DNA of 40,000 bases. It comes from Candidatus Aquicultor sp. Its GTDB lineage: Bacteria > Actinomycetota > Aquicultoria > Aquicultorales > Aquicultoraceae. The notes under the pieces were generated by a model. The model was not told the DNA's origin. It saw only the letters and a list, made by a program, of their open reading frames with translations, and made no database searches. Where the stretch lies: contig DASXVE010000010.1 of the NCBI GenBank assembly GCA_036504445.1, forward strand, positions 1 through 40,000, written 5' to 3'. The translations under genes and the position numbers were made by a program. This document shows positions 605 through 20,384 of the stretch, in pieces; the first letter of the stretch is position 1, and every line of letters begins with the position of its first letter.

Positions 605-933
605 GGTGGGGAAACGACCTGTCGCTGGCCGAAAGGCTAGAGGAAACATCCTACACCCACGCGGCGTGTTTTCACGGCGCGTAATAGACCGCCTCTTGAA
701 AAAGAGGGCAGCTCTGCAAGGGCTGACGACAAGTGCCACAGAGACGAGCCGTTTAACATAATTGTTGGGCGGGTGAAACGCGGTAAACTCCGGTCGGGTG
801 CAACTCAAATAGGGTGGTGCATTAATAGTGCGCCGGTCCCGGGTAGAGGCAGCCGCGTTCGCGGCCCCGCGCCTCAAGCGCGGTGAGATAGATGACAGGA
901 TAGAACAGAATGGGAGTTACGGTTTCCCCACCG
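605..933 (+). ncRNA. rnpB: RNase P RNA, bacterial type A
   Basis: This is the catalytic RNA subunit of RNase P, which removes 5' leaders from pre-tRNAs. Conserved blocks appear in the right order: GAGGAAAC near 631, GCCACAGAGACGAG near 735, GGGTGAAACGCGGTAAACTCC near 771, GCAACTCAAATAG near 801, GAGATAGATGACAGG near 885 and ACAGAATGGGAGTTAC near 905. Helix P1 is explicit: GGTGGGGAAAC at 605-615 pairs with GTTTCCCCACC at 922-932. The 3' strand of P1 is followed by a U-run (934-942) that completes a terminator. The length of about 330 nt fits the family. The last 16 bases of the gene lie inside the integration repeat of the downstream mobile element, and the RNA is left intact. Confidence 0.95.
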
Positions 934-943
934 TTTTTCTTTA
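918..943. repeat. attL: left 26-bp direct repeat overlapping the rnpB 3' end
   Basis: The 26 bases starting TACGGTTTCCCCACCG and ending TTTTTCTTTA are identical to 9847-9872. The repeat covers the 3' strand of rnpB helix P1 and its terminator U-run. An integrase gene lies about 150 bp inside this repeat. This is the expected signature of site-specific integration at the 3' end of a structured RNA gene. Confidence 0.93.
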
Positions 944-981
944 TCTACTCTTGATACTAGGCCGATGTAGTGCAGGAATAT

Positions 982-1013
982 AAAAACCACCGGGCAAATA
1001 TCCGGTGGTTTTT
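982..1013. terminator. Bidirectional terminator downstream of int
   Basis: A perfect 12-bp stem (982-993 with 1002-1013) around an 8-base loop has A5 on the left and T5 on the right, so it can work in both directions. It lies between attL and the 3' end of the leftward integrase gene. It would stop int transcription from running antisense into rnpB and stop rnpB readthrough from entering int. Confidence 0.85.
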
Positions 1014-1020
1014 GCCTATT

Positions 1021-1040
1021 TGCTAACATTTTGCTAACAA
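1021..1040. repeat. Left arm-type integrase site (two TGCTAACA repeats)
   Basis: TGCTAACA occurs at 1021-1028 and again within TTGCTAACAA at 1031-1040, spaced 11 bp, about one helical turn. The same pair recurs near the right end at 9717-9735. Tandem short repeats just inside both ends are the usual form of arm-type binding sites for tyrosine integrases. The role is inferred from position and repetition. Confidence 0.65.
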
Positions 1041-1089
1041 GACTGTTCGAGTACCCCTTAAGGGAGCTCGTTCTGCCCCGCGTCAGCTC

Positions 1090-2199
1090 TTATTGTAGAA
1101 CCGGGCTACAGACATCCAGGGCAGCAAAGATCATGCGGTGTCGCTCGTGTGCATCAGCCTCGGTCTCGGGCAGCACATGTGAGTAGACCCGAAGAGTAAT
1201 CGACGCATCAGCGTGGCCTAGAAGGCGTGAGACGTAGCGTAAAGACTCACCACTTGAGAGGAGTGCAGTTGCATAGGAATGCCTCAAATCGTGCCAGCGA
1301 ACGCGCTTGAGCCCTGCGAGTGCCAACGCCGGCCGGAATACACGGACTTCGATATTCCAGGGGTTCCAGGCATTACCTTTTGTGCCGCAGAAGACGAGAT
1401 CGTGCGGGTTTTCGTTCACCATCACTGCTTGGCGCAGTCGGTGTTGCTCTAACGCTTCGGCAAGCTCTGGGATCATCGGTACCTTGCGCACTGCAGCGGC
1501 CGATTTGACCTCACGCAGCTTATTGGGCCGCACGTGGATGTAGCCATTGGCAAAATCTATATCACCCCACTGCAGGTAGAAGGCTTCGGCTTGGCGCAAA
1601 CCAGTATAGCAAGCGAGCATCACAAGTGCCCGATATTTAGCCTTAGTATTAGCGATAAGTGATTGCATCTCAGCAGGCGAGAGGTACTGCATTTCGACCT
1701 TCGTAGTGCGTGGTGGTTTGATATACTCTGCGGGTGATTTAACGAGATAGCCGAGTTCACATGCACGCTTGAGAACCATCTTGAGGGTCATCAAGTACTT
1801 CTTGGCATTGTTAGGGCTCATACCCTCGTTCATGAGGCTCGTAAGAAATTTCTCTACATCAAGAGGTTTGATGCTCTTAAGTATTTTTCCTGTAAAGAAG
1901 GGCAGTATCTTATGGTTTAAGTGGGTTTTGTACTTGCGCAGGGTGTTTGCGCGTACTCTGGTGGCGTGTGCCTCGAGGAAGGTCACGGCAAACTCTTTCA
2001 GCGTAATGTCGGGCAGATCCTGGTAGGTGCCGTTAGTGACCTGAGGCAGAACCTCTTCCAGATAGCGCTCAGCGTCACGCTTCTTAGGGCCGATCCGCTT
2101 CCACCGTTGCTTGTATTCTATGCCTTCTTCGGTTTCCACCGGTATTCGGTAGATAACATAGTAGTTATCGCCGCGCTTTCGAATGCTGCCCCTAGCCAT
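1090..2199 (-). CDS. int: Tyrosine recombinase / site-specific integrase
   Basis: This 369-residue integrase catalyses insertion and excision of the element. An N-terminal arm-binding domain (about residues 1-60), a SAM-like core-binding domain (65-155) and a C-terminal catalytic domain (170-345) are recognisable. Catalytic residues are visible: R202 in TGLR, a Lys in the 232-239 loop, H303 and R306 in HDLRH, H329 in LGHA, and the nucleophile Y339 in RVYSHV. ATG at 2199 has an AGGAGG ribosome site 6-7 bases upstream on the minus strand. It is the outermost gene, beside attL, and reads toward rnpB with a terminator beyond it. The neighbouring direct repeat indicates that its target is the rnpB 3' end. 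Confidence 0.95.
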   Translation of the reverse strand: MARGSIRKRGDNYYVIYRIPVETEEGIEYKQRWKRIGPKKRDAERYLEEVLPQVTNGTYQDLPDITLKEFAVTFLEAHATRVRANTLRKYKTHLNHKILPFFTGKILKSIKPLDVEKFLTSLMNEGMSPNNAKKYLMTLKMVLKRACELGYLVKSPAEYIKPPRTTKVEMQYLSPAEMQSLIANTKAKYRALVMLACYTGLRQAEAFYLQWGDIDFANGYIHVRPNKLREVKSAAAVRKVPMIPELAEALEQHRLRQAVMVNENPHDLVFCGTKGNAWNPWNIEVRVFRPALALAGLKRVRWHDLRHSYATALLSSGESLRYVSRLLGHADASITLRVYSHVLPETEADAHERHRMIFAALDVCSPVLQ

Positions 2200-2222
2200 G
2201 TTTGACCTCCTGACTTCTTTAC

Positions 2223-3389
2223 TTATTTTGACTTCGTTCGCCTAAACCTGATTGGTGTAACGCCAAGGGAATCACAAGCCCTTATATAGGACCGCTGAAA
2301 CGATTCAGGCTTAACCACATCTTTGCCCTTTCTCTTTGACCATCGTTCAGCAAGAGTCGACCAAAATACTTCAGCGTTATCGGCAACAACTGCCTCTTGT
2401 CGTACAAACTCAACTAATTCATACCGCTCGTTAACCTTGCCTTTGTTGAATTTGACACCTGCAAGATCACGCAAGATTGCATGAAGCCTAATCAATTCGT
2501 CTCTTGTAAGATCAAAACCGAAGAAGTTAACCGTCAGGTACTTGTATGGACGACCGCTACTCTCTGTTAGAAATACGGTTTCGTGGACTGAAGCCGTTAC
2601 TGGTGGCAGGATCGGGACAACACCGGTAAGTATGTGCATAACTGCCTCTTCTTTTTTCCAACCGGTGATACTCGAAATGGATTCAGCCTCATCGGCTAAA
2701 ATTGCCAACATACCTTGTGGACTTATTGGCAAATAAGCTTCGTGACCATGCTTATCAAGAAAGCCTATAAGCTTTTGTTTGCAGCCTCTTAAACCCACGG
2801 CGTTAATTAGAACAGGACTGTTAAGTGTGACTGGGTCTCCTATGTGAAACTCATCGCTGGTAAATGATGGGCTGTAACCAAAGAGTGCTCTCGCTGTGTC
2901 GGAGTTTGCGATGACTTCAATGATCTTATGATCGGGCTCATTCGCTGCGGTTTCCCTTATCCATGTAATAGCTGCTTCTTGTGTGCTAAACGGCGGTTCG
3001 GAATCACCAAAAAGTCGTTTCCTCTCACATTGTACTGAATAAGATAACTGCTCGGCGACGATAAGCGAAGCAGCCTGGGCGCTTGTTGCTCTCGCGAAAT
3101 CAACGCTGAATTGTTCTTGGCCCTTATCTCCAAAGGGAGTTATGCTAAGGCCAAACTCCTCGAGCCTCTTTTCGTTCTGCGCTAGTTCATATATAGTTTT
3201 AATCTCTCTCTCGCCTAAAGAGTTCTGGAGTTTCCTCTTTATGTTGTCTGGTCTTACCGATCTAAGAGCATATTCAAAAGCACGATTAATATGGTGCGCA
3301 TCGAGACCATGATGCTTATATGTTCGATCAATCTTCTCTTTGGCCTCCACTAGCCTACTCTGCTTAAGCTTCTCTAGTAAATCAGACAT
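2223..3389 (-). CDS. Unknown 388-residue protein at the regulator position of the element
   Basis: I do not recognise the family. The protein is 388 residues from ATG 3389; a TTG at 3401 would add four residues but has no spaced ribosome site. It looks soluble, with no signal peptide or membrane segment. The first 80 residues are charged and helical. The middle contains an LFGDSEPPFSTQEAAI segment, and the region around residues 235-265 (LADEAESISSITGWKKEEAV) could form a small helical DNA-binding-like unit. The C-terminus is strongly basic (RFRRTKSK). It is transcribed leftward, 24 bp upstream of int, and diverges from the XRE/xis operon across a gap with an inverted repeat. That is where PICIs place their Stl-type master repressor, so a regulatory role is possible, but there is no clear helix-turn-helix. 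A defence cargo role is the main alternative. Confidence 0.8.
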   Translation of the reverse strand: MSDLLEKLKQSRLVEAKEKIDRTYKHHGLDAHHINRAFEYALRSVRPDNIKRKLQNSLGEREIKTIYELAQNEKRLEEFGLSITPFGDKGQEQFSVDFARATSAQAASLIVAEQLSYSVQCERKRLFGDSEPPFSTQEAAITWIRETAANEPDHKIIEVIANSDTARALFGYSPSFTSDEFHIGDPVTLNSPVLINAVGLRGCKQKLIGFLDKHGHEAYLPISPQGMLAILADEAESISSITGWKKEEAVMHILTGVVPILPPVTASVHETVFLTESSGRPYKYLTVNFFGFDLTRDELIRLHAILRDLAGVKFNKGKVNERYELVEFVRQEAVVADNAEVFWSTLAERWSKRKGKDVVKPESFQRSYIRACDSLGVTPIRFRRTKSK

Positions 3390-3415
3390 AAAATGTACCA
3401 ACCTGTCAGATATCG

Positions 3416-3440
3416 TACAATTATCTACAAGTAGATTGTA
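3416..3440. promoter_or_regulatory. Inverted-repeat operator candidate in the divergent intergenic region
   Basis: TACAA (3416-3420) and TCTA (3424-3427) pair with TAGA (3432-3435) and TTGTA (3436-3440) around a CAAG centre. It sits in the 94-bp gap between the leftward unknown gene and the rightward XRE gene. This position suits a lysis/lysogeny-type switch operator. No clear -35/-10 pair was recognised. Confidence 0.5.
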
Positions 3441-3483
3441 ACTTTATCGTAAGAATTGGTCAACAAGTGAATAGGAGGCTTGC

Positions 3484-3663
3484 ATGATAACCCAACTAAA
3501 GTTGCAGCTCGTCTTAAAAGATATCAAACAGGCAGATATAGCCAGGGCTGCAGGTGTGCATCGGGCTTATATTAACCGTGTCGTTCTTGGTCGACAGAAG
3601 CCAAGCGAGAGAGTAATTAAAGCATTTAAAGAGGTTGCGGGCATCGAAGTAGGAGGTAAATAG
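3484..3663 (+). CDS. Small XRE/Cro-like helix-turn-helix regulator (59 residues)
   Basis: ATG at 3484 follows an AGGAGG site at 3473-3478, and the frame ends at TAG 3661-3663. The protein begins MITQLKLQLVLKDIK and contains QADIARAAGVHRAYINRVVL, a canonical XRE-type helix-turn-helix (turn AAGVH, recognition helix RAYINRVVLGRQKP). At 59 residues it is close to a bare DNA-binding domain, like Cro or SaPI Str proteins. It is the first gene of the rightward operon. The ribosome site of the next gene (3651-3656) lies inside its last codons, so translation is probably coupled. It probably binds the divergent intergenic region. Confidence 0.85.
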   Translation: MITQLKLQLVLKDIKQADIARAAGVHRAYINRVVLGRQKPSERVIKAFKEVAGIEVGGK

Positions 3664-3666
3664 CAA

Positions 3667-3876
3667 ATGCTTAGTAGAGACAGTAGATTAGTCACCGTAA
3701 AGGATGCGGCACAGATCCTCTCAATGAATGAACAAGTGCTTTATCGAATGGCAGCAGATGGCAGATTACCAACATATCGCATCGGTAAGGCCGTCCGCTT
3801 CGATCTGGATGAGTTATCGGCTTTACTACGGAACGAAGGGAGCGAGGAATCATGCAACGTGAGAACGATTGGCTAG
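3667..3876 (+). CDS. xis: Excisionase-family (HTH_17) DNA-binding protein
   Basis: This 69-residue winged-helix protein has the excisionase/AlpA pattern: LVTVKDAAQILSMNEQVLYRMAADGRLPTYRIG, then a VRFDLDEL wing. Family members bend DNA near att sites to favour excision or act as small activators. ATG at 3667 follows AGGAGG (3651-3656) with a 10-base gap. It lies 3 bp after the XRE gene and overlaps the next small ORF by 25 bp, so the genes form one operon. In PICIs the equivalent gene is xis, needed with int for excision. A regulator like AlpA is the alternative. Confidence 0.88.
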   Translation: MLSRDSRLVTVKDAAQILSMNEQVLYRMAADGRLPTYRIGKAVRFDLDELSALLRNEGSEESCNVRTIG

Positions 3877-4076
3877 AAAAGGAAAGGGCCGGTAGCTCCC
3901 CAGCAAACCGGACCCAAAATGACACCCAACGATGGGCTTTCTGTTGTCCTGATTGTATATCAATGGGTAACGAGCTGCAAGCAAACCATGGAATTTTGGC
4001 TTTAGCCGAAACAGCGTATCTCCGGTGGGGTGCGCAAAAGTTTGGCTTACGACCGCTACCGACACTCTCGAGATAG
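3852..4076 (+). CDS. Small hypothetical protein with CPxC motif, upstream of primase
   Basis: A 74-residue ORF starts at ATG 3852 behind a GGAGCGAGG site and overlaps xis by 25 bp. It contains WAFCCPDCISMG, a possible half zinc-binding knuckle, then an amphipathic segment (GILALAETAYLRWGAQKFGL) and a short proline-rich tail. It fills the only gap between xis and the primase gene, which starts 12 bp downstream. The context suggests an accessory replication protein, but I recognise no named family. Confidence 0.65.
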   Translation: MQRENDWLEKERAGSSPANRTQNDTQRWAFCCPDCISMGNELQANHGILALAETAYLRWGAQKFGLRPLPTLSR

Positions 4077-4088
4077 GCAGGGCTACCA

Positions 4089-5939
4089 ATGAAACCGATC
4101 GATAAAGTACTAGCTGCGGTACCAGGCCAGAAGAAGAAAAACGGCAAAGGCTATATGTGCCACTGCCCAGCCCATAATGATCGTAACCCAAGTCTTGAGG
4201 TTAAGCAAAATCAAGACGGTAAAGTTTCTATCAAATGCCATGCGGGTTGTGATTTTAACGACGTGCTATCAAGGATAGGGCTTACAGCAGCAGACTTATA
4301 CCCAGATATCCGGGTGCATGTAGGGCCGGAGATCATTGCAGAATATGACTATAAGGATGCACAGGGCAAGCTAAGATACCAGATCGTTCGTAAGGTTCCG
4401 AAATCGTTTCTTTTACGTCGGCCAGACAGTAACGGCGGATGGCTCTGGAATAAAGACGGGATCGAGCTAATTCCGTACAACCTGAGTGCAGTTGTTCAGG
4501 CAATCGAGCAAAACAAGTTCGTTTGCATTGTTGAGGGTGAGAAGGATGCTGACACCCTATCAAGACTTGGGATTACCGCAACATGCAATCCATTCGGCGC
4601 TGGCAAATGGCCCGAAAGCTTTGCGCAGTACTTTCATGGTGCACATATAGCCATAATTCCCGATCAAGACGAACCTGGTAGGTTGCATGGCCTCGATGTA
4701 GCTCGCAAACTTAGTGGTGCAACCAAGAGCATCAGAATCGTAGATGTACCAACAGGTAAGGACGTTACCGATTACATTAACGCCGGCGGCACTGATGCAA
4801 GCCTAAAGGCCATCGTGAAACATACGGTCGAATTGGATATCAATAAGGTGTCCCCAGTCCCATCCCTATATAGTAATAGGGACTCAGGGACACTTAGTAT
4901 TCGGCGTCTAAGGGATATCGATGAGCCAGCTCCAATGGAATTCATCGTGGAAGATTTCGTTCCTGAGAACTACCCCACAATGTTTTACGGTGATGGTGGC
5001 CAGGGCAAGAGCTACCTTATTCTTTGTCTTGGCAGTTGCGTTGCTGAAGGCAAGGAATTCTTAGATAAGTCAACTAAGAAAGGTAACGTGCTCTACGTGG
5101 ATTTTGAGCTTGATGAGGCTGAGCAGGCTCGGCGTGCCTTCAAAGTTGCTCGCGGTCTAGGCCTTGAGAGGCCACCGGAAGGGCTCTTCTACTTCTCACC
5201 GGTAAGCCAGGATAAAGCAGTCAAGGATATAGGCGCTATTATCGACGAATTGGTTGTGTTAATTGCTGAGCACGACATTAAGCTTACAATCATCGATTCG
5301 TTTGGCGCCGCAGTTGCTGGCGATCCAGAGAGTGCAAGAGATGTAACTGGACTCTTCCGTAACCTTAGGCGACTTGGAACGACAATTATTCTCGATCACC
5401 AGAGCAAGGCAAGTGCCGATAAGTACAAAGATAAAACAGCATTTGGCAGCGTCTACAAGCAAAACATGAGCCGTAATATCTGGCAACTGCAGCGCATGCT
5501 CGATACGGTGACCGCGGACAACGAGATGAAGCTTGCACTCCATCACAAGAAGAGCAACTTTGGGCCTCTTAGAGAGACAATCTGCCTGAAAGCCACGTTC
5601 GGGCATGCTTATAGTATTGAACGCGTTGACCCTGACATCGATTTCTCCGATGCACTCTCAACTAAGGACCAAGTATTTATGGCGTTTGCCGAGCTTGGAA
5701 GTGCAACCGCAAAGCAGGTAGCTGATGAGTATCTCGTTCCATTAAAGACCGTTAAGAATAAAATCACTGCGCTCAAGCAAGAAGGTAAGCTCAGGCCAAC
5801 GGGGGCCAAGGATGGGCAAGCTGATGTGTACGAGCCCACCGTCCCAGTGTCCCCCATATATAAGGATAAGGACGCCGGGGAACAACTGACCACTGATCCG
5901 GTGATAACCGAGGAGGGCCGCTGTGAATACGATTTCTAA
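4089..5939 (+). CDS. Primase-helicase: CHC2-type zinc, Toprim and RecA-like ATPase domains
   Basis: This 616-residue replication protein has a zinc-binding primase head (residues 24-54: CHCPAHNDRNPSL and KCHAGC), a Toprim domain (VEGEKDAD at 148-155, with E149; PDQDEPG at 191-197, with D192 and D194), and a RecA/AAA_25-type ATPase. The ATPase has Walker A GDGGQGKS at 301-308, LYVDFELD near 335, Walker B LTIIDSFG at 399-406 and ILDHQSKA near 434. A C-terminal winged-helix-like segment (about 525-570) follows. Together these parts prime and unwind DNA for autonomous replication of the element. A weak ribosome site lies upstream of ATG 4089. Two proline/aspartate linkers carry a related peptide and GTCCC-rich palindromic DNA. 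PICI pri/rep functions are often separate genes; here they are fused. Confidence 0.93.
   Translation: MKPIDKVLAAVPGQKKKNGKGYMCHCPAHNDRNPSLEVKQNQDGKVSIKCHAGCDFNDVLSRIGLTAADLYPDIRVHVGPEIIAEYDYKDAQGKLRYQIVRKVPKSFLLRRPDSNGGWLWNKDGIELIPYNLSAVVQAIEQNKFVCIVEGEKDADTLSRLGITATCNPFGAGKWPESFAQYFHGAHIAIIPDQDEPGRLHGLDVARKLSGATKSIRIVDVPTGKDVTDYINAGGTDASLKAIVKHTVELDINKVSPVPSLYSNRDSGTLSIRRLRDIDEPAPMEFIVEDFVPENYPTMFYGDGGQGKSYLILCLGSCVAEGKEFLDKSTKKGNVLYVDFELDEAEQARRAFKVARGLGLERPPEGLFYFSPVSQDKAVKDIGAIIDELVVLIAEHDIKLTIIDSFGAAVAGDPESARDVTGLFRNLRRLGTTIILDHQSKASADKYKDKTAFGSVYKQNMSRNIWQLQRMLDTVTADNEMKLALHHKKSNFGPLRETICLKATFGHAYSIERVDPDIDFSDALSTKDQVFMAFAELGSATAKQVADEYLVPLKTVKNKITALKQEGKLRPTGAKDGQADVYEPTVPVSPIYKDKDAGEQLTTDPVITEEGRCEYDF
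4848..4893. repeat. Interrupted palindrome of GTGTCCC/GGGACAC blocks inside the primase gene
   Basis: The left arm GTGTCCCCAGTCCC (4848-4861) pairs with the right arm GGGACTCAGGGACAC (4879-4893). Only a 1-2 base internal mismatch breaks the pairing. A 17-bp AT-rich centre carries a second TCCCTAT/ATAGGGA inversion. It encodes the linker between the Toprim and ATPase domains (VSPVPSLYSNRDSGTLS). Possible roles are an iteron-like origin site or a regulatory hairpin. Confidence 0.75.
5841..5862. repeat. Second GTCCC-rich half-palindrome near the primase gene 3' end
   Basis: GTCCCAGTGTCCCC followed by CATATATA repeats the left arm of the 4848-4893 palindrome with its two blocks swapped. The matching right arm is degenerate (AAGGATAAGGAC, 5862-5873). 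It encodes VPVSPIYKDKDAG, related to the peptide encoded by the first site. Confidence 0.6.
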
Positions 5940-6225
5940 TGCGCTCGATCTTTATGCTGAACTTCACGCGCTTCGACTTGATCCGTGGATTATAAACGGC
6001 AAGCTCTCGCTCTCAAACCAAGCGTCGGCGCACCTCATTGAATCGATCAAGGCGCATAGAGAGGAACTATTTGAGCTCATTCGCGCGGTCGATGATAAGG
6101 TCCCCGGTGCCTGTGAGCGCTGTAGAAAGTGGGCCGAAGATCTCTTCACAGTCAGAGCTGGTCGAGTGTGCACCGCCTGCGTAGATGAATTGCTTGTGAA
6201 AGAGGGTTATTTCGGTGAAGAGTAG
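5923..6225 (+). CDS. TubC N-terminal docking-domain-related protein with C-terminal zinc ribbon
   Basis: This is a 100-residue protein from GTG 5923, with AGGAGGG at 5911-5917; it overlaps the primase gene by 17 bp. Residues 1-53 match the small alpha/beta pattern of TubC_N docking domains (LHALRLDPWIINGKLSLS, then IKAHREELFELI). Residues 63-87 hold two cysteine pairs (CERC and CTAC), a likely zinc ribbon. TubC_N domains are known as protein-docking modules in megasynthases, but related small proteins sit next to primases in phages and mobile elements. The overlap with the primase gene suggests that the two proteins interact or are translationally coupled. Confidence 0.75.
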   Translation: MNTISNALDLYAELHALRLDPWIINGKLSLSNQASAHLIESIKAHREELFELIRAVDDKVPGACERCRKWAEDLFTVRAGRVCTACVDELLVKEGYFGEE

Positions 6226-6361
6226 CAGGTTCATCGAGGTCAAGATATCTAAAGCAACACTCTTCTTGACGCCAGAAGAGTTTAAGACAGCGCTCAAACG
6301 TGGCAAGGCAATACTAAGGGCTCGCAGTCTGAAGAAACGAATAGAAGATGCAAGACCGTAA
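6215..6361 (+). CDS. Small basic hypothetical protein (48 residues)
   Basis: GTG at 6215 overlaps the preceding gene by 11 bp, and an AGAGGG site lies about 9 bases upstream. The frame ends at TAA 6359-6361. The product starts with VKSSRFIEVKISKATLFL and continues TPEEFKTALKRGKAILRARS, so it is short, basic and helical. Small proteins with an LTPEE...LKRGKA pattern commonly follow primase genes in Gram-positive mobile elements. No function is known to me. Confidence 0.6.
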   Translation: MKSSRFIEVKISKATLFLTPEEFKTALKRGKAILRARSLKKRIEDARP

Positions 6362-6375
6362 AAAGCGGGCGAATA

Positions 6376-6504
6376 ATGCAACTTACTAAGTTCAGAAGCA
6401 CGAGCCTTATATTTTTTAGAGCCGATAAAAGCAGGGAATTTCTTGAGTCCATAAAAGGAGCAGAAATTCCAAACCCTTATATTCAAAAGGATACGAATCA
6501 GTGA
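6376..6504 (+). CDS. Possible small hypothetical protein (42 residues)
   Basis: An ATG at 6376 opens a 42-codon frame ending at TGA 6502-6504, 15 bp before terS. It starts MQLTKFRSTSLIFFRADKSR. The ribosome site is weak (GCGGGC). It is supported mainly by tight packing between its neighbours, and may be non-coding. Confidence 0.3.
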   Translation: MQLTKFRSTSLIFFRADKSREFLESIKGAEIPNPYIQKDTNQ

Positions 6505-6519
6505 GAGAGGGTAGACATC

Positions 6520-7056
6520 ATGGCCAAAATAGGCAGGCCGCGTAAGTTCGAAAATCACGAGCAGTTTGCAACCGCTGTTCAGCACTATTTTGATAGCATT
6601 AGAATCACACGGCCGGCTTTTGAAAAATATATCGATGGCATAGACGCTAACGGAAAGCCCATCTGTAAAGAACAGCCGGTAATAACCAATGCCGGCACGC
6701 AGTTTATGAGTGTGACATGGCTACAGCATCCTAGCATAGAAGGCATGTGCTGCCACCTCGGAATCTCACGAGAGACTTTACGGCGTTACAGCAAAGACGA
6801 AGAGTTTCGTGACACTTATACGCGCGCGAGGCAGATCATTGAGGAGTACATAGAAACAAAGCTACTCTATGATAGCAAAACAGTAAGGGCTGCAATGTTT
6901 GTCTTGAAGTGTTGCTTCGGTTGGCGAGAAGTAAAGAGGCAAGAACGTATTGAGCCGAACAGGCCCGCTAGCGTGTCCTTACTTACTAACAAAGAGCGTG
7001 AGGCTGAAATCAAAAGGCTTAAAAATGAGCTCGGATATATCCACAGTCAACCTTAA
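6520..7056 (+). CDS. terS: Phage terminase small subunit (TerS), gp3/Terminase_5-like
   Basis: This 178-residue protein fits the DNA-packaging small-subunit pattern: GRPRKF at residues 5-10, then HYFDS, a helix-turn-helix (MCCHLGISRETLRRYSKDEEF), the RARQIIEEYIETKL helix and a VLKCCFGWREV block resembling the family LKNNFGW motif. TerS recognises the pac or cos site and feeds DNA to the large-subunit ATPase. No large subunit is present in the element. In PICIs a satellite-encoded TerS redirects helper-phage packaging to satellite DNA. ATG 6520 has a GAGGG site about 8 bases upstream. The assignment rests on motif pattern, not on a search. Confidence 0.82.
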   Translation: MAKIGRPRKFENHEQFATAVQHYFDSIRITRPAFEKYIDGIDANGKPICKEQPVITNAGTQFMSVTWLQHPSIEGMCCHLGISRETLRRYSKDEEFRDTYTRARQIIEEYIETKLLYDSKTVRAAMFVLKCCFGWREVKRQERIEPNRPASVSLLTNKEREAEIKRLKNELGYIHSQP

Positions 7057-7328
7057 AACCTGCCCAATCACATGCCTTCCCTGTTCTGATAGCTATGCTT
7101 CGGAGACGTCGGCTTCATGAGACATAAGAATCTGTCGTAACCTTACAGCCTTGCATAAATATGGGCTATGCTGAGCGATACATTAGATTTTCTACGTGTC
7201 AACCGGTTACTAACCAGTTAACATTAATGCTGGTAAACGGCCTAGTTATTGCACAGATAGCTGTACTTACTCAACCGATTAGACTAGACTTTTACTAATC
7301 CAGCCATTCAAGACCTTGGGTTAAGGAG
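7057..7328. other. Non-coding stretch downstream of terS
   Basis: No ORF with a credible start was found. The stretch holds several short inverted repeats, including GGTTACTAACC (7204-7214 region) and GATTAG/CTAATC pairs near 7277-7300. Phage and satellite packaging sites often lie next to terS, so this is one candidate location for a pac or cos-like site, but nothing in the sequence proves it. Confidence 0.4.
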
Positions 7329-7499
7329 GTGAAGGTTATTACTCTATGGCACGTCTCGTTCGGCAACAAAGCAACGGTAAGACAGGCGGCGCAAGAAAAG
7401 CAAGAGCAGGTAGACTAGTTTTGCGGTTGGCTACCTGCTCAGTTAGCAGGAATAGGATACCTGCCTATTGCCATTATAGCAGGTATCCTCAACAAATGA
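7329..7499 (+). other. Short frame interrupted by an in-frame TAG, overlapped by another small ORF
   Basis: GTG at 7329, within a good AAGGAGGTG context, opens a 29-codon frame (MKVITLWHVSFGNKATVRQA...) ending at TAG 7416-7418. The same frame continues without another stop to TGA 7497-7499, encoding a hydrophobic peptide (LAGIGYLPIAIIAGIL) that looks like a transmembrane segment. An alternative 56-codon frame runs from ATG 7346 to TAG 7514-7516 with an Arg/Lys-rich start. Which frame, if any, is translated is unclear. Confidence 0.35.
7454..7489 (+). repeat. 11-bp perfect inverted repeat upstream of 7510 gene
   Basis: AGGATACCTGC (7454-7464) pairs with GCAGGTATCCT (7479-7489) across a 14-base loop. 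A related pair, GCAGGTA (7406-7412) and TACCTGC (7432-7438), lies just upstream. The stem ends 21 bases before an ATG, so it could be a regulatory leader hairpin. There is no U-run, so it is not a standard terminator. Confidence 0.6.
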
Positions 7500-7509
7500 G
7501 GGGGATAGG

Positions 7510-7998
7510 ATGGTAGAGGTAATAGTGGATTTTAGCAGTATCGAAGGAACTGACGGGGACCTTGAACTGGTCACGAAGAAACTGGCACTTGAGGACATAG
7601 ACTACATGTTCACCGTGAGTAAGGACGATCCACTGACGGGTGCTGTGATTGCTGATCGCTACTATGGTCAAGCGTGGACCGAGATAGCCGATGGAAGCAA
7701 GCTCTTTTTCAAGAGGGGCATAAAGCCAGAAGTAGACGACATTATTCTAGCAGAGGTAACTGACAATGTTCGTGTTGACGGATTGCAGGGCGCTGTAGTC
7801 ATTCGCCATTTTGAGCCTCACAGTGGCTGCTATATTCTTCGGTCTGCTGATGGCAATATCGAGGACATCACGATCTTGCCGGAGTGCGACTTTAAGGTCA
7901 TTGCCGTCTGCATAGCAGCGCAATATCGGCCAGGTGGCAGTATTGATGCTCGAGAGCTCATACGGCGAGAGGCTATTGATACTCTACGAGTGATTTAA
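7510..7998 (+). CDS. Hypothetical protein, possible S24 (LexA/CI C-terminal)-like fold
   Basis: This is a 162-residue acidic protein with a GAGGGGG ribosome site 6-7 bases before ATG 7510. The N-terminal 50 residues have no recognised domain. From about residue 58 the pattern (DGSKLFFKRGIKPEVDDIILAEV, then GAVVIRHFEP, YILRSADG, DFKVIAVCIAAQYR) resembles the beta-rich S24 peptidase domain of LexA/CI repressors. The catalytic Ser of GDSM and the catalytic Lys are not clearly conserved (DGSK and VIRH instead). No helix-turn-helix is visible. It may be an inactive S24-like regulator or antirepressor, or an unrelated beta protein. A terminator follows. Confidence 0.75.
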   Translation: MVEVIVDFSSIEGTDGDLELVTKKLALEDIDYMFTVSKDDPLTGAVIADRYYGQAWTEIADGSKLFFKRGIKPEVDDIILAEVTDNVRVDGLQGAVVIRHFEPHSGCYILRSADGNIEDITILPECDFKVIAVCIAAQYRPGGSIDARELIRREAIDTLRVI

Positions 7999-8029
7999 GC
8001 TACAGACAGTGCTTGTTGCTTGAACTTTG

Positions 8030-8057
8030 GGTCCGGCGTTGAGCCGGACCTTTCTAT
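8030..8057 (+). terminator. Terminator between convergent genes of the element
   Basis: An 8-bp stem GGTCCGGC/GCCGGACC (8030-8037 with 8043-8050) around GTTGA is followed by TTTCTATTT. It ends the rightward unit just before the 3' end of the leftward membrane-protein gene. Confidence 0.8.
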
Positions 8058-9268
8058 TTCGAATGAAGTTGTTGCCGCCAAAACAGGAAGCCAGTCAATA
8101 ACACAGATAGGGCTACTAGGCCGGTCCATACTCTTGTAGCTATAGTTCGCTGCCGCCGAGCGAGGCTCTTAAGTTCAGACTTTGCTTTGGTTGCAGCAAG
8201 CTCTTCTTGGTCTTGTATTTTCCATTCAGCTTCTTCACCACCACCATACAAGGCTGGAAGTGAAAGCTTTTGCTTCAGCTCAGCCATTTTCTTAGCTTCT
8301 TTTGGTCTAGCCAGTATCTGCTTTTTCCTTATTGCCATATCAGCCTCAGAAACGACGGGCTCCATCTCTCCGCTATAAAACTTTCCGTCATCGACGCCGT
8401 AGATTGCAACCCATGCCTGTCCTGACCAGCGGTCGTGCATATGTACGATCTTTAATTCTCCGTTATTGAACGTTTGTGTTGGTCCTTTATCCCATCTAAG
8501 TTGCCAAGCTGCCAGCAGTAAAAGACAAGCAATAGCGGGGATCAACCATACGTGCTTCACATTTCTACTTGTATTTCGCTGTGCCAACGTATCTTCCATA
8601 CTATCCCCTTGAGCTTCGCTGCAATCATGCAGTAACTCTGGCGCTATGATTTCAGAACCGCTGGTATTCCCTACCGAACGACCGCTTTGAGTTGTACCAT
8701 AGTTTTGCCGTCGTACTCTATTGTCTAATCGGAGTTTCACACTAATATGCTCAACAGACCAGCCTAACGCATATATACCAAGCACAATTCCCGTAATTGC
8801 AAAAACAAAATTAGGGATGTCTGAATTAGAACCGGTCCCATTCAGTACGTTATAGACAATACTCAGGATAAAACCTCCAGCGAAATAAACCAGGAATCCT
8901 CTCCATACAATTTGCCATCCGACCATTAAGTAATTGGCTCCTAAAAAGCTTACTCTTTGGTTGCATGCAAGCCGTTTAGCTATCCAGCCAATCATATGTA
9001 AGCAAGCAAAAACGTACAGCGCTATAAGTGCTATCAAGCATAAATTGGAAGATAATGAGTTTGAGCTAAGGACGCTACCAATTGTGCCATAAATAAAGCC
9101 AAGAAAAACTGCACCGGATAAAATAATCCCCCATACGAATAATCCAGCTAGAAAAGTTTTTGAAAAAGAGGGATCAGGGGACATACATTCACCATAAGGC
9201 TTGCTTGTTTCTGTATGACTTTTCTTGCTAGTCCGGTTCGGTTTGTTCACTGCACTGGGTGGCTCCAC
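8054..9268 (-). CDS. Six-TM membrane protein of unknown function (element cargo)
   Basis: This 404-residue protein starts at GTG 9268, chosen because AGGGGGAAG lies about 9 bases upstream; ATG at 9184 has no comparable site. Hydrophobic segments lie at about 38-61, 76-98, 112-140, 153-172, 240-256 and 380-397. A hydrophilic loop with a CSEAQGDSMEDTLAQR stretch (about 175-238) and a large segment at 257-379 separate them. The latter ends in a Lys/Glu-rich likely coiled coil (310-375). I do not recognise the family. It is transcribed opposite to the replication operon and on its own, as cargo genes of satellites often are. Membrane-disrupting phage defence or superinfection exclusion is conceivable but unproven. 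Confidence 0.82.
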   Translation of the reverse strand: MEPPSAVNKPNRTSKKSHTETSKPYGECMSPDPSFSKTFLAGLFVWGIILSGAVFLGFIYGTIGSVLSSNSLSSNLCLIALIALYVFACLHMIGWIAKRLACNQRVSFLGANYLMVGWQIVWRGFLVYFAGGFILSIVYNVLNGTGSNSDIPNFVFAITGIVLGIYALGWSVEHISVKLRLDNRVRRQNYGTTQSGRSVGNTSGSEIIAPELLHDCSEAQGDSMEDTLAQRNTSRNVKHVWLIPAIACLLLLAAWQLRWDKGPTQTFNNGELKIVHMHDRWSGQAWVAIYGVDDGKFYSGEMEPVVSEADMAIRKKQILARPKEAKKMAELKQKLSLPALYGGGEEAEWKIQDQEELAATKAKSELKSLARRQRTIATRVWTGLVALSVLLTGFLFWRQQLHSK

Positions 9269-9414
9269 TAGCTATCTTCCCCCTATCAAAGTGGATGCTC
9301 TGTATCCAAGCTATTTAGACAAGAGCAACGGTACTACTGACATACTACCAAAGATGGTGGCTAAAGAATATAATGTAGTATAAGCAAGTAGAAACTGGCT
9401 TAACTGGAGGAATT

Positions 9415-9663
9415 ATGAAGGTACGAGAGCTTCAGCAAGAACTGAGCAAACTAGATCCCGAGTTAGAGGTTATTTGCTATAGCGAAGATGATAACCTGCT
9501 AGAAGAAGGTATGGGGTTTCGACTTCTGGATATCGAAGCAGTAAATACTACGCAAGGCGAGAGAGTTCGCCTTGATGACAGATTTAGGACACCATATTTA
9601 AAGCTTGGGAAAAGTCCACATTCAGAGATTTTTGCAGTTATAGAAGTGACATCTGTCTTTTAA
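9415..9663 (+). CDS. Small hypothetical protein (82 residues)
   Basis: ATG 9415 follows CTGGAGGAATT, a strong ribosome site. The N-terminus MKVRELQQELSKLDPELEVI fits a widespread class of small acidic proteins in phages and mobile elements. In these, a KV.EL...L..LDP...V segment precedes a beta-rich tail; here the tail ends FAVIEVTSVF. The function is unknown to me. It is the last gene before attR and is transcribed toward it. Confidence 0.75.
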   Translation: MKVRELQQELSKLDPELEVICYSEDDNLLEEGMGFRLLDIEAVNTTQGERVRLDDRFRTPYLKLGKSPHSEIFAVIEVTSVF

Positions 9664-9674
9664 ACGTCGCCTGC

Positions 9675-9688
9675 ATGCTTGCAAGCAT
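9675..9688. repeat. 14-bp perfect palindrome
   Basis: ATGCTTGCAAGCAT is self-complementary and lies 12 bases after the last gene of the element. It may be a binding site or a weak hairpin. Confidence 0.5.
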
Positions 9689-9716
9689 ACTTCAAGGGTA
9701 ACTTTTCACTACCTTA

Positions 9717-9735
9717 TGCTAACACTTGCTAACAA
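9717..9735. repeat. Right arm-type integrase site (two TGCTAACA repeats)
   Basis: TGCTAACA at 9717-9724 and TTGCTAACAA at 9726-9735 repeat the left-end arrangement at 1021-1040 with 10-bp spacing. They lie about 110 bp inside attR; the left pair lies about 80 bp inside attL. The orientation is the same at both ends. Confidence 0.65.
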
Positions 9736-9846
9736 AACCTGAATCGAGATTGATTTGCGCCAGTGGAAGGTAGTATAAAATGCCTATTTTATACAAATAT
9801 AAGGCAAAATAGGGGAGTAAATACCAGTATAATCCCAGCTCAGGGA

Positions 9847-9872
9847 TACGGTTTCCCCACCGTTTTTCTTTA
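9847..9872. repeat. attR: right 26-bp direct repeat
   Basis: All 26 bases are identical to 918-943. No rnpB 5' partner sequence precedes it, as expected if this copy is the displaced 3' end created by integration. Sequence to the right is host chromosome. Confidence 0.93.
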
Positions 9873-10110: not shown

Positions 10111-10446
10111 ATGAGCCAATTTTCTTTCACAGTTGAAGTAGAGGATGACCACAAGCTTGTTATCAGGCCGATCGGCGCGTTGGATTTCCATACGGTAGGG
10201 ATTTTAAAGCAAGCGATCTATCCCCTGGCAGTCAATGAGGACATCATGGACATCGTCTTCGATTACGTTGACGTTGATTACTCCGATAGCTCGGCGTTCG
10301 GCTTACTACTCAAACTGAGCCGGACGGTTGACGGGGAAGTAACGGTTATAAATGCCCGCCCATCTCTGAAGCGCCTCTTTCAAATGGCGGGGTTTGACAC
10401 GCTCTTCTTTAAAGAAGAGCACCACGACCACGGCCATACCGCATAA
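10111..10446 (+). CDS. STAS-domain protein (anti-sigma factor antagonist-like)
   Basis: This 111-residue single-domain STAS protein has an alternating beta/alpha pattern: LVIRPIGALDFHTVGILKQA, the central YSDSSAFGLLLKLSR helix start and VTVINARPSLKRLFQMAGFDTLF. In SpoIIAA/RsbV-type antagonists a serine at the start of the central helix is phosphorylated by an anti-sigma kinase; S58, S60 or S61 lies there. The C-terminus is His-rich (HHDHGH). No partner kinase gene lies nearby. RBS AGTAGGTGAG precedes ATG 10111. The STAS fold is fairly certain; the specific partner is unknown. Confidence 0.85.
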   Translation: MSQFSFTVEVEDDHKLVIRPIGALDFHTVGILKQAIYPLAVNEDIMDIVFDYVDVDYSDSSAFGLLLKLSRTVDGEVTVINARPSLKRLFQMAGFDTLFFKEEHHDHGHTA

Positions 10447-16743: not shown

Positions 16744-18297
16744 ATGATTGCGCGACTACTCGTACTAGTCGCCCTTATCAGTTCATGTTTTATCTCAACC
16801 GCGTATGCAGCAAGTAACAATACAAACACCCTTTTTACCGCACAGCAATTTGAATCACCTAAACTCGAATCATCTAGTTTAACCAGTAGCTTTAAATCAT
16901 CTAGTTTAAACAGCAATTTTGAAGAATCAGATACTATTGTACGTAACTCGTTGACCGGCTTGCACGGAAGGTATGTAACAACGCCTTCTCGATGCAGGGT
17001 CTGTCATGGATTTGATAAACGGGCGCAAGGCATACAAATAACTGCTATCGCCGGCATATACGCGTGCGATTGGTGCCATGATTTTGGTGCCGCATCATCG
17101 TATTACGTCACGTTGGAAGGCGACGAATTCGGTAAGCCGGAACTTGGCGTGGGCCATAGCCGTGGCTATGGGCTTTCAACCGGTAAGTGGTCGGCTCCAG
17201 ATGATACATATCCTGCGTTTATCCCGCGCTTCTGGTATGGCGGCCTCAGCTGTTTCGATTGTCATTCGCCACACGCAAATCCATCTCGAATTCTTGGATT
17301 TAATAAGTCAGGCCAGCCTCGTTTTGGTGTCTTAGACCCGGGTTTTACCGATCTTAAGACATCTTCTCAACCAGGTTCATCATCTATGTATAAATCTGGT
17401 CGCTGGATCCTTAAGAAAAACCCGGATCCAGAGATAGATCCTGAATCCGGCTATGAGATTGCCGATACCTATGATGGCGATTTGTCTTCTCTGGTACGGT
17501 ATCCGGTTAATAAGGTTGCCATTAACTGGGATAATCCATATGCCAAGAATGTGGCAGAGGCATCCGATGCCAATATCCGTCTAGAGAAGACGAGTTCGGT
17601 TAGCGAACTCTGTATTGATTGCCATGACGGAGATGGCGGGCTTCACAGCACTTCTGCGCTAGCATACTCACCCGAGAACGGTGCGGACGGTAAGACGGGC
17701 CTCAACAGTTACGAGCGCGCTTTCGGTCATGATTCACAACCGGGTAAGTGTAGCGGCAAACTATTTATTAATACCGAAGATGGTAAGAATAACGGTCCTC
17801 CGTGTCGCAGCTGCCATAGGGCAGGAGGCGATTGTGATTTGTGCCATACATCCGGCAGGGTAGCGGCAGAGACCAACTGGCCGCGCGATGCCTATGCGCC
17901 AAATCCAAGCCTCGCTTCTAATAAAGGCTTTGAAGGCGTGCAAGCCGATAAGGTACAACATGTGCTAGATAGAGATAGCCTCCAGCTTAAGTCTGTGGCC
18001 AGATGGGATCCTCAGCGTAAAAATTCTAGCGTGGAATGTTCCTCTGAGTGTGTCAACTTGGGATATAGTTGGCCTCACCGCACATTTGCCTGGAAGATGT
18101 TAAAGAACGAGCTCTATGGTGTTTACCTGGATGACCAAAATGTTGAGGTGACTCAGGTTAAGCAGCTGCTTGTTAAATATTCAGCCATATCGGCACAGCC
18201 GGCCCAAGACCCAATTGGCGCCGTTTGTCTTGATTGCCATAATCCGTTTGTCTGGAAGCCCGGCACAAAAGAGGCGCTTAAAAAAGGGCTACCTTAG
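16744..18297 (+). CDS. Seven-heme multiheme cytochrome c (exported)
   Basis: This 517-residue protein has a signal peptide (1-22, ending AYA) and seven CxxCH heme sites at residues 84, 108, 170, 290, 354, 364 and 495. Possible distal ligands include the HGRY, GVGHSRGYG and GHDS histidines. A Ser-rich repeat (41-60) separates the signal from the heme region. C432 and C436 are not heme motifs and may form a disulfide. It is a clear paralog of the cytochrome 365 bp downstream, sharing APDDTYPA, SCFDCHSPHANP, WPHRT and CLDCHNP blocks. It is probably an electron carrier outside the cytoplasmic membrane. No heme-attachment or quinol-oxidase genes lie in the window. Confidence 0.92.
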   Translation: MIARLLVLVALISSCFISTAYAASNNTNTLFTAQQFESPKLESSSLTSSFKSSSLNSNFEESDTIVRNSLTGLHGRYVTTPSRCRVCHGFDKRAQGIQITAIAGIYACDWCHDFGAASSYYVTLEGDEFGKPELGVGHSRGYGLSTGKWSAPDDTYPAFIPRFWYGGLSCFDCHSPHANPSRILGFNKSGQPRFGVLDPGFTDLKTSSQPGSSSMYKSGRWILKKNPDPEIDPESGYEIADTYDGDLSSLVRYPVNKVAINWDNPYAKNVAEASDANIRLEKTSSVSELCIDCHDGDGGLHSTSALAYSPENGADGKTGLNSYERAFGHDSQPGKCSGKLFINTEDGKNNGPPCRSCHRAGGDCDLCHTSGRVAAETNWPRDAYAPNPSLASNKGFEGVQADKVQHVLDRDSLQLKSVARWDPQRKNSSVECSSECVNLGYSWPHRTFAWKMLKNELYGVYLDDQNVEVTQVKQLLVKYSAISAQPAQDPIGAVCLDCHNPFVWKPGTKEALKKGLP

Positions 18298-18662
18298 TGT
18301 TTAGTTTCATGCGTTAGAATGAAGAATCCACACGCTTGTTATTGGTCACCCCTTAGATCCACTGGTTTTAACCCTGGAATATCCTAGCCTGCGTAGCTGG
18401 TAACCTTGTAAAATATACATGCTTCTACCAGCACTCATCCCGCTCGTTTTATACAGTGTCTGTTTATACTGATGTGTGCGCCGCTGCCCACACCTACTAC
18501 AATGTTAGTTATTGTGTGAGTAGTTTCCTGCAAAAACAGCCATTCGCGTTTCACCCCAAAATACCCCGGTATTAATTAGCAGAAAGCTGGAATACAGCAT
18601 TTTTTGAGGTTGTTACCAGCCCGAATAATGCGTTACCGGGATTATAAAGCGGGGGTGGTCCG
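18298..18662. other. Intergenic region between the two cytochrome genes
   Basis: There is no credible ORF. No conserved GEMM (cyclic-di-GMP) riboswitch core was seen, although such switches precede cytochrome genes in some metal reducers. A weak hairpin around GTGTGCGCCGCTGCCCACAC (18473-18492) is the only structure noted. The cytochromes may therefore be transcribed separately. Confidence 0.45.
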
Positions 18663-20384
18663 GTGAAACGAGCATCGGTGTTTACGCTAGCGATGGTGCT
18701 TCTTGTGTGGTTGGCCTGTGGCTGTACGTCTGCCAGCACACAAAAGACTGAGGCTAGTTCAAGCAAAGGTAACCATAAGTGGGACAGGGCAGTCGAGCGG
18801 ATAGTGAACTACTATCCAGGTTTTGAAAGTACCGCTCACCCGCGAGGCACATGGTATAGTCCATATACCTTTGGAGCCGATGCGTACAACTATAATGACC
18901 CGCAGGAATACACGGGGGTCAGCACGGTACGTGACAGTAACGGCAAGCTCATAGTGCAGGCTGCAGGAGCGCATGGCAACTACCTCACAAGTACAAATCG
19001 ATGCAGGGAATGCCACGCGACGCATGCCTCGTCAGGCATTTTTAAATTGACCAGGTCTGATACCAGGTTTGAGGCATGTGATTGGTGCCACGGTAGTGGG
19101 GCTGGGGCTGGATTCGACATCAAGACCGATAATAACAGCGAACACACAGTTGAATACGGTGTTGGGCATTCAATGGGCTACGGAATCTCAAAGGGTAATT
19201 GGCGGGCTCCGGATGATACGTACCCAGCTTATACGCCAAGCTACTGGCTTGGCGGTTTTTCATGCTTTGACTGTCATTCGCCCCACGCTAACCCTAAAAG
19301 GCTTCTCGGCTTTTCCAATAATGGAACTATGACATTTCCGATATATAATCCAGGGTATAATGCTATAACAGCTCTTAGCATGTCGCATAAAAATTTGCAG
19401 TATCCGGCCGGGTCATGGCTTTTGCTTAAAAACCCTGATCGTGAGACTAACCCGACAACCGGCAAAGAAATCTCCGATAGTGATGTAAAAACTTCGCTCG
19501 CAATATCCTTTAATGGTAGGCAACATAGATTTCCCGTACATAAACAAGCCATTGATTGGGATCATCCTTCACGCTCGGGTGGGGCAATGTCGGATGGGTT
19601 TCAGATTAGTCAATTCTGTGCTGATTGTCATGATGGCAACGCCGGTCTTGCTACCGAGCAAGTTGCCATGTTTTCTGAGGATCTTGCGCTCATGGGTAAA
19701 ACCGACATACAGGCATATGTGATTGGTTCCGGACATGATTCGAGCGAGCAAGAACACGGTGCTCGCTACTTTGATCCGGAAGACAATATTAACAATGGTC
19801 CGAGTTGCCGCGGATGCCATCGTGGCTCTAGTACGTGTAAGATTTGCCATAGTAATTCGGAAATGCTGCAAGCTTCCGGCCAATACCCGCGACCATCATT
19901 TCCCGGCAATATACAAACCGCTCTATCACCGGTTCCAGCGGGCATGGCAGGTGTTAAATCGAAAGTGCTCATAAACGTAACCGATGCTACCGTTCGGGTT
20001 GCGCCGAGTTCAGGCACCACGATCGTTTATCCTACTGATTGGAACTCGAGTAACAGCGCACACGCAGAACCAGCATGCTGTGATAATGGGTTTAGCTGGC
20101 CTCACCGAACACTTGGTTGGAAAATGCTCAAAGACGACCTGTTCGGTGTCGACTTTGACGGGCAAACAGCAATTCGTCCTGGTGATCGTCGGAAGTTACC
20201 ACAAGCGATGGTCCGTGCGCGACAGAGAACGACAAATAGCACTATGACCAATCTATTGAACGCAGGTATGGCAGGAGCGACCGCTCCTGCACAGAACCTC
20301 GATTCAGTATGCCTTGATTGCCATAATCCGAATATTTGGAATCCGCAGCTGAAGGGAAATCTTTTATTGCGAGGATTACCGTAA
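18663..20384 (+). CDS. Seven-heme multiheme cytochrome c, lipoprotein-like
   Basis: This 573-residue paralog of the upstream cytochrome starts at GTG 18663 with GGGGG about 8 bases before it. Its signal ends in a lipobox-like VWLACGC (cysteines 19 and 21), so it is probably lipid-anchored on the outer face of the membrane. CxxCH sites lie at residues 114, 139, 201, 319, 382, 392 and 550. Spacing and flanking residues match the paralog, including GVGHS.GYG, CFDCHSPHANP, DCHDG and WPHRT.GWKMLK. A longer segment (400-475) between hemes 6 and 7 differs. The pair may form a relay from the membrane to extracellular acceptors. Confidence 0.92.
   Translation: MKRASVFTLAMVLLVWLACGCTSASTQKTEASSSKGNHKWDRAVERIVNYYPGFESTAHPRGTWYSPYTFGADAYNYNDPQEYTGVSTVRDSNGKLIVQAAGAHGNYLTSTNRCRECHATHASSGIFKLTRSDTRFEACDWCHGSGAGAGFDIKTDNNSEHTVEYGVGHSMGYGISKGNWRAPDDTYPAYTPSYWLGGFSCFDCHSPHANPKRLLGFSNNGTMTFPIYNPGYNAITALSMSHKNLQYPAGSWLLLKNPDRETNPTTGKEISDSDVKTSLAISFNGRQHRFPVHKQAIDWDHPSRSGGAMSDGFQISQFCADCHDGNAGLATEQVAMFSEDLALMGKTDIQAYVIGSGHDSSEQEHGARYFDPEDNINNGPSCRGCHRGSSTCKICHSNSEMLQASGQYPRPSFPGNIQTALSPVPAGMAGVKSKVLINVTDATVRVAPSSGTTIVYPTDWNSSNSAHAEPACCDNGFSWPHRTLGWKMLKDDLFGVDFDGQTAIRPGDRRKLPQAMVRARQRTTNSTMTNLLNAGMAGATAPAQNLDSVCLDCHNPNIWNPQLKGNLLLRGLP

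Follow-up and report, generated by a model that had tools for sequence, protein, structure and literature searches.

A probable PICI-like phage satellite of unusually small size, encoding a terminase small subunit, at the rnpB gene of an uncultured actinobacterium

The window analysed here, a 40,000-nucleotide stretch from an assembly of Candidatus Aquicultor sp. (2.57 Mb, 34 contigs, 100% complete), carries an exact 26-bp direct repeat, the two copies of which lie 8929 bp apart, start to start, and enclose a compact block of genes (Table 1). As had been proposed in the original prediction, the host is a member of the phylum Actinomycetota and the repeat bounds an 8.9-kb element, of which both attachment ends and all main reading frames are intact. 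The pair is the sole perfect long repeat within the first 12 kb of the window, and a perfect match of 26 bp across 8.9 kb would not be expected by chance. The repeat overlaps the 3′ end of rnpB, the gene of RNase P RNA (Rfam model RNaseP_bact_b), and its core, GTTTCCCCACC, corresponds to the 3′ strand of the P1 stem, whose partner strand is found at 605-615 (inverted repeat I3); the RNA gene is therefore complete after insertion. In this actinomycetotal host, the class-B match of 101 bits is barely above the cut-off of 97 bits. Class B RNase P RNA is typical of Bacillota. In a limited literature search, no description of rnpB as an attachment gene was found. The sequence TGCTAACA occurs four times in the 40 kb, with two copies located just inside each end of the element and no others, and these copies look like putative arm-type sites of the integrase.

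Table 1. Features of the element and its borders (positions in the window).
Feature	Position	Strand	Evidence
rnpB, class-B RNase P RNA, attachment gene	610..924	+	Rfam RF00011, 101.4 bits
attL, left 26-bp copy: 3′ strand of rnpB P1 stem and T-rich tail	918..943	+	exact repeat
Terminator-like hairpin between rnpB and convergent integrase gene	981..1014	.	same place in five sister genomes, compensatory changes
Two TTGCTAACA repeats, left; putative integrase arm-type sites	1020..1039	+	CTAACA-type equivalents in relatives
Tyrosine integrase	1090..2199	-	Pfam PF00589 (Phage_integrase) 1.1e-29; PHROG 1 2.8e-79
392-aa protein in Stl/Rpr position	2223..3401	-	position only; no significant match in libraries used
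Small XRE-type regulator	3484..3663	+	HTH_3 1.3e-7
Excisionase-like HTH_17 protein (xis)	3667..3876	+	PF12728 6.1e-12; PHROG 66 4.8e-10
Primase-helicase: Zn ribbon, Toprim, RecA-like AAA_25	4089..5939	+	AAA_25 8e-27
TubC_N-like small protein, overlapping the primase stop	5923..6225	+	hhalign 88%, E 3e-6
Terminase small subunit (TerS), GP3_package family	6520..7056	+	PF16677 3.7e-17; PHROG 606 2.6e-20
162-aa protein, putative cargo or regulator	7510..7998	+	non-significant C-terminal S24/LexA-like similarity, E 0.07
Terminator-like hairpin, 3′ of the 162-aa gene	8029..8051	+	hairpin search
404-aa protein with hydrophobic stretches, putative cargo	8054..9268	-	no Pfam, PHROG or PADLOC match
82-aa protein, putative cargo	9415..9663	+	weak PHROG 24370 match, 1.7e-4
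Two TGCTAACA repeats, right; putative integrase arm-type sites	9717..9734	+	repeat search of 40 kb
attR, right 26-bp copy	9847..9872	+	exact repeat
Host STAS-domain-like gene, outside the element	10111..10446	+	next gene after rnpB at the unoccupied site of G001

The integrase, XRE-type regulator, excisionase and primase-helicase named in the original prediction are all matched by the corresponding profiles. The catalytic residues of the integrase are present (R199, H303xxR306, H329 and Y339), as are the motifs EGEKD, DQD and Walker A GDGGQGKS of the primase-helicase, for which the Zn ribbon, Toprim and AAA_25 domains were recovered. The gene oriented against the XRE gene had been proposed to occupy the regulator position; its divergent placement stands, but its product of 392 amino acids matched neither an HTH domain nor a known family, with nothing significant in any of the profile libraries used, and the AlphaFold2 model was unusable (mean pLDDT 41). 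Distant homologues of the 392-aa protein are encoded in the genomes G045 (25% identity over 273 amino acids, E 6e-18; L182, 5073-12451) and G282 (L187, 80-1373), and each of them is divergent from an HTH gene that adjoins replication genes. This placement supports a regulatory role of the 392-aa protein, although it falls short of proof.

The small gene that overlaps the end of the primase gene had been called TubC_N. Its match to the Pfam TubC_N family is below significance; however, profile-profile alignment with hhalign links it to a profile of the TubC_N-like genes that come after related primases, and TubC_N genes take the equivalent post-primase place in the genomes G026 and G097. No ori site was identified in the element, and a search for iterons after the primase gene (5900-7520) yielded weak and short repeats only. 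The helicase half of a primase encoded in the sister genome G005 (L062, 4328-6367) is around 60% identical to that of the window, whose N-terminus is of the Toprim type as opposed to the Prim-Pol N-terminus in G005, a case of domain swapping.

The prediction that the element encodes a terminase small subunit is borne out by profile searches: the protein matches GP3_package with 62.8 bits (curated cut-off 29.4) over model positions 1-102 of 105, and PHROG 606 with 74 bits. Furthermore, a profile built from this TerS and its phage relatives matches the solved structures of the TerS protein Sf6 gp1 (E 7e-4), and in the three phages checked the TerS homologue is encoded directly or one gene before TerL. 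The AlphaFold2 model of TerS was unusable (mean pLDDT 44). Searches of Pfam and PHROG returned no structural or lysis family for any of the ten proteins predicted in the element, and, as had been claimed, the element lacks terL, portal, capsid and lysis genes. Nor did profile searches of the whole assembly reveal a TerL above the cut-off (weak ATPase-like matches only) or an HK97-type capsid; such genes, had they belonged to the element, would have spoken against the original prediction. No pac site and no capsid-remodelling or interference gene were recognised in the element, and TerS on its own is no proof of packaging. With genes for integration, excision and replication, one packaging gene and none for a particle, the element most probably relies on a hijacked helper virus for its spread. 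The expected helper prophage with a matching terminase did not turn up in the relatives, and a GP3_package TerS is absent from all other genomes searched (0 of 147 other relatives and 0 of 395 other Actinomycetota genomes), which therefore point to no helper phage. Viral contigs scanned with the TerS, primase, integrase and regulator of the window contained no close relative. Three faecal phage records matched by TerS or primase (MT836267, MT837250 and MT839005) were considered as packaged satellites and rejected, as TerL-like genes are present; these small records are phages or phage fragments.

The gene content also bears on the possibility that the locus is an integrative element that is moved by other means, such as plasmid-like transfer, transformation or passive transduction, and that its TerS has a different DNA-binding role. 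Many primase-integrase elements in the collections, for instance L090, lack a TerS by the profile used, and a 6-kb element in G005 is likewise devoid of a recognised TerS. However, no relaxase, FtsK/Tra protein or conjugative replication initiator is found among the element proteins, and the TerS is not truncated, its similarity to packaging families extending over most of the protein, and we therefore regard such a mode of transfer as quite unlikely. A conjugative element was rejected on gene content.

The last three genes of the element lie between terS and the 3′ end, which is the place of accessory genes in phage-inducible chromosomal islands (PICIs) (PMC13376191), and are probably cargo.

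The history of the integration site can be followed in the sister genomes. An empty site, as sought by the original prediction, is present in G001, where rnpB is followed by around 140 bp and then by the STAS-like gene, a label that stems from reading of the sequence; this flank matches the sequence downstream of the window element. Among ten genomes of the family, the rnpB site is occupied by the window element, by decayed forms or by islands, or else shows no left end of an element. Six of the ten (G000, G003, G004, G005, G008 and G009) share a common left end after rnpB, which consists of a hairpin, whose stem is kept by paired changes, and subsequent CTAACA-type repeats. No prophage was recognised at rnpB in the ten genomes, some of whose downstream regions are partly covered. 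These comparisons leave very little room for the view that the repeat and the gene block are an artefact of assembly or annotation. The genome is indeed a draft of 34 contigs; however, the left end is independently present in five other genomes, and the host gene downstream of the element recurs at the empty site of G001.

Several of the sister loci carry other genes. In G003 (L176, G003:C47, 11155-18720), a copy of the rnpB 3′ end stands on either side of an island with a type III restriction-methylation system and a Bro-N gene, assigned to PADLOC PDC-S13, in which no integrase was recognised. The same island is represented at rnpB in G005 (L063, G005:C183, 2941-6342) by its initial two genes, after which the contig ends. 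Downstream of the rnpB left end in G009 (L175, G009:C73) are genes for a DarT homologue and its macro-domain partner as well as for a ParE toxin (2958-4685 and 396-704). The varied occupants across the family mark the 3′ end of rnpB as a docking site at which mobile and defence genes have settled repeatedly, and we infer that the satellite integrase may have helped the defence islands to move. A truncated integrase, 73% identical to that of the window and in which HxxI replaces the catalytic HxxR, is located at rnpB in G004. Near the end of another contig of G003 (L061, G003:C35, 18699-19146), a frameshifted relative of TerS is found, which is 64% identical over 39 amino acids and 44% over 71 amino acids. 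Together, the truncated integrase and the frameshifted TerS gene show that such elements have moved through the family.

Elements with the same general plan but without a GP3 TerS are found elsewhere in Actinomycetota: a 6.0-kb element at tRNA-Arg in G026 (repeat 86% identical), a 6.0-kb element at tRNA-Thr in G005 (exact 46-bp repeat) and a 7.3-kb element at tRNA-Val in G045 (48-bp repeat, 98% identical). G026 belongs to the same class as the host of the window element, G062 to the same phylum. In G045, the integrase is encoded at the far end on the strand of the primase, and the homologue of the 392-aa protein alone is divergent. In G026 and G045, a zinc protein termed HGG-like is encoded near the primase; that of G026 is a member of PHROG 3678, the match of that of G045 to this family being weak. 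In the phage contig L194 (14902-16484), an HGG zinc protein gene of PHROG 3678 directly abuts TerL; because of this neighbourhood, the HGG protein of G026, which is encoded in the slot that TerS has in the window element, may take the role of TerS. On a Nitrospirae contig (L139), genes for a primase, HTH proteins, an integrase and a TerS-like protein lie beside tRNA genes, and no att repeat was found when it was looked for there. A locus in G082 (L079) was dropped as a relative, as an insertion sequence lies in it and no TerS was recognised.

The main rival explanation is that of a reduced prophage, that is, a temperate phage from which everything past terS has been deleted and which is now stuck in the chromosome. 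Phage contigs L197, L211, L217 and L226 encode the same primase family a few kb upstream of TerS and TerL, which makes the element look like the early half of a phage, and its TerS family is shared with temperate phages that have a GP3_package or P22-like TerS, in whose related contigs the primase also lies upstream of TerS; the window element differs from these phages by the lack of TerL, morphogenesis and lysis genes. However, the element is undamaged at both att ends and in all main frames, cargo-like genes stand where the late region would be, and the same reduced layout is also seen in G026, in G045 and, probably, in the Nitrospirae contig, for which repeated chance deletion is an unlikely source. 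Intact ends and a recurrent stripped plan favour a satellite, and a reduced prophage is considered unlikely. We conclude that the locus probably represents an intact, unusually small, PICI-like and TerS-encoding phage satellite of an uncultured actinobacterium.

PICIs have been defined by a conserved gene organisation, a master repressor (Stl/Rpr), a specific att site free of prophages and the absence of structural and lytic genes, and the definition further covers phage-dependent induction, interference and packaging (PMC6092414). Their size is around 12-15 kb, and an iteron-bearing replication origin follows pri/rep (PMC6092414). The window element resembles Gram-positive PICIs and SaPIs (PMC6092414) in that int on the left is followed by a divergent pair in the regulator position and then by xis, primase or replication genes, terS and accessory genes, the regulator of the window element being assigned by position. 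The absence of structural and lytic genes (0 of 10 proteins match) is a further shared trait, and no prophage was recognised at the att site in those parts of the ten family genomes that were covered. In contrast, the element measures only 8.9 kb between its att sites, and its regulator-position gene of unknown family, its GP3_package TerS, the rnpB attB and the actinomycetotal host set it apart from PICIs (PMC6092414). The original prediction held that this layout defines PICIs; the layout is indeed that of Gram-positive PICIs, but "defines" is too strong, since phage-dependent induction and packaging are also part of the definition (PMC6092414). Judged by the evidence to date, the element would function as a PICI does, and it is filed as PICI-like rather than as a proven PICI.

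Other small satellites differ in further respects. PICMIs are minimalist satellites of Vibrionaceae of around 6 kb, which encode an integrase, an HTH protein (AlpA) and a DUF3987/DUF5906 primase, integrate at fis and lack terS (PMC10803314). The window element is similarly very small, and its relatives in G005 and G026 are comparable to PICMIs in size and content; however, it carries TerS, a Toprim/AAA_25 primase and the rnpB site, and identity with PICMIs was rejected on account of primase and site. A capsid-forming PICI was likewise rejected, as own capsid, portal and TerL genes are absent. PICIs have been predicted in Actinomycetota (PMC10690885), and the Streptomyces satellites MulchRoom and MiniFlayer bring their own terminases, portal and capsid but no obvious replicase (PMC10690885). 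The window element, from the same phylum, shows the reverse arrangement, with a replicase and without portal and capsid.

Based on position and domains, a life cycle of the proposed satellite can be outlined. As the sequence shows, the integrase inserts the element where rnpB ends and restores the RNA gene, so that the host keeps its RNase P. The 392-aa protein and the XRE-type regulator would probably keep the element silent until a helper phage arrives, upon which it would be cut out at the 26-bp repeats by xis and integrase and copied from its own origin by the primase-helicase. TerS would then bind to a pac-like site on the element DNA and pair with the TerL of the helper, and helper capsids would thereby be loaded with element DNA.

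The validation of satellites in actinobacteria has been described as lagging (PMC10023795). In the literature found, the experimentally described satellites of Actinomycetota carry capsid genes of their own and no obvious replicase (PMC10690885), and the window element represents the opposite plan, that of putative TerS hijacking, now seen in a deep, uncultured actinobacterial branch. Moreover, it adds rnpB as a candidate satellite attachment gene, one linked to the turnover of defence genes, and supplies testable candidates in the regulator family of the 392-aa protein and the primase-TubC-TerS/HGG module. It is tempting to speculate, and at present no more than tentatively, that these elements form a separate ultra-compact (6-9 kb) satellite lineage that is widespread in uncultured Actinomycetota and beyond, with the 392-aa proteins as a new master-regulator family and a primase-TubC_N-packaging module in which either a GP3-type TerS or an HGG zinc protein fills one slot; rnpB would be a dock held in common, where defence islands that lack an integrase (type III restriction, DarT/macro) may be swapped in trans. 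At 16744-20384 of the window, two nearby proteins rich in CxxCH motifs are encoded, which are probably multihaem c-type cytochromes.
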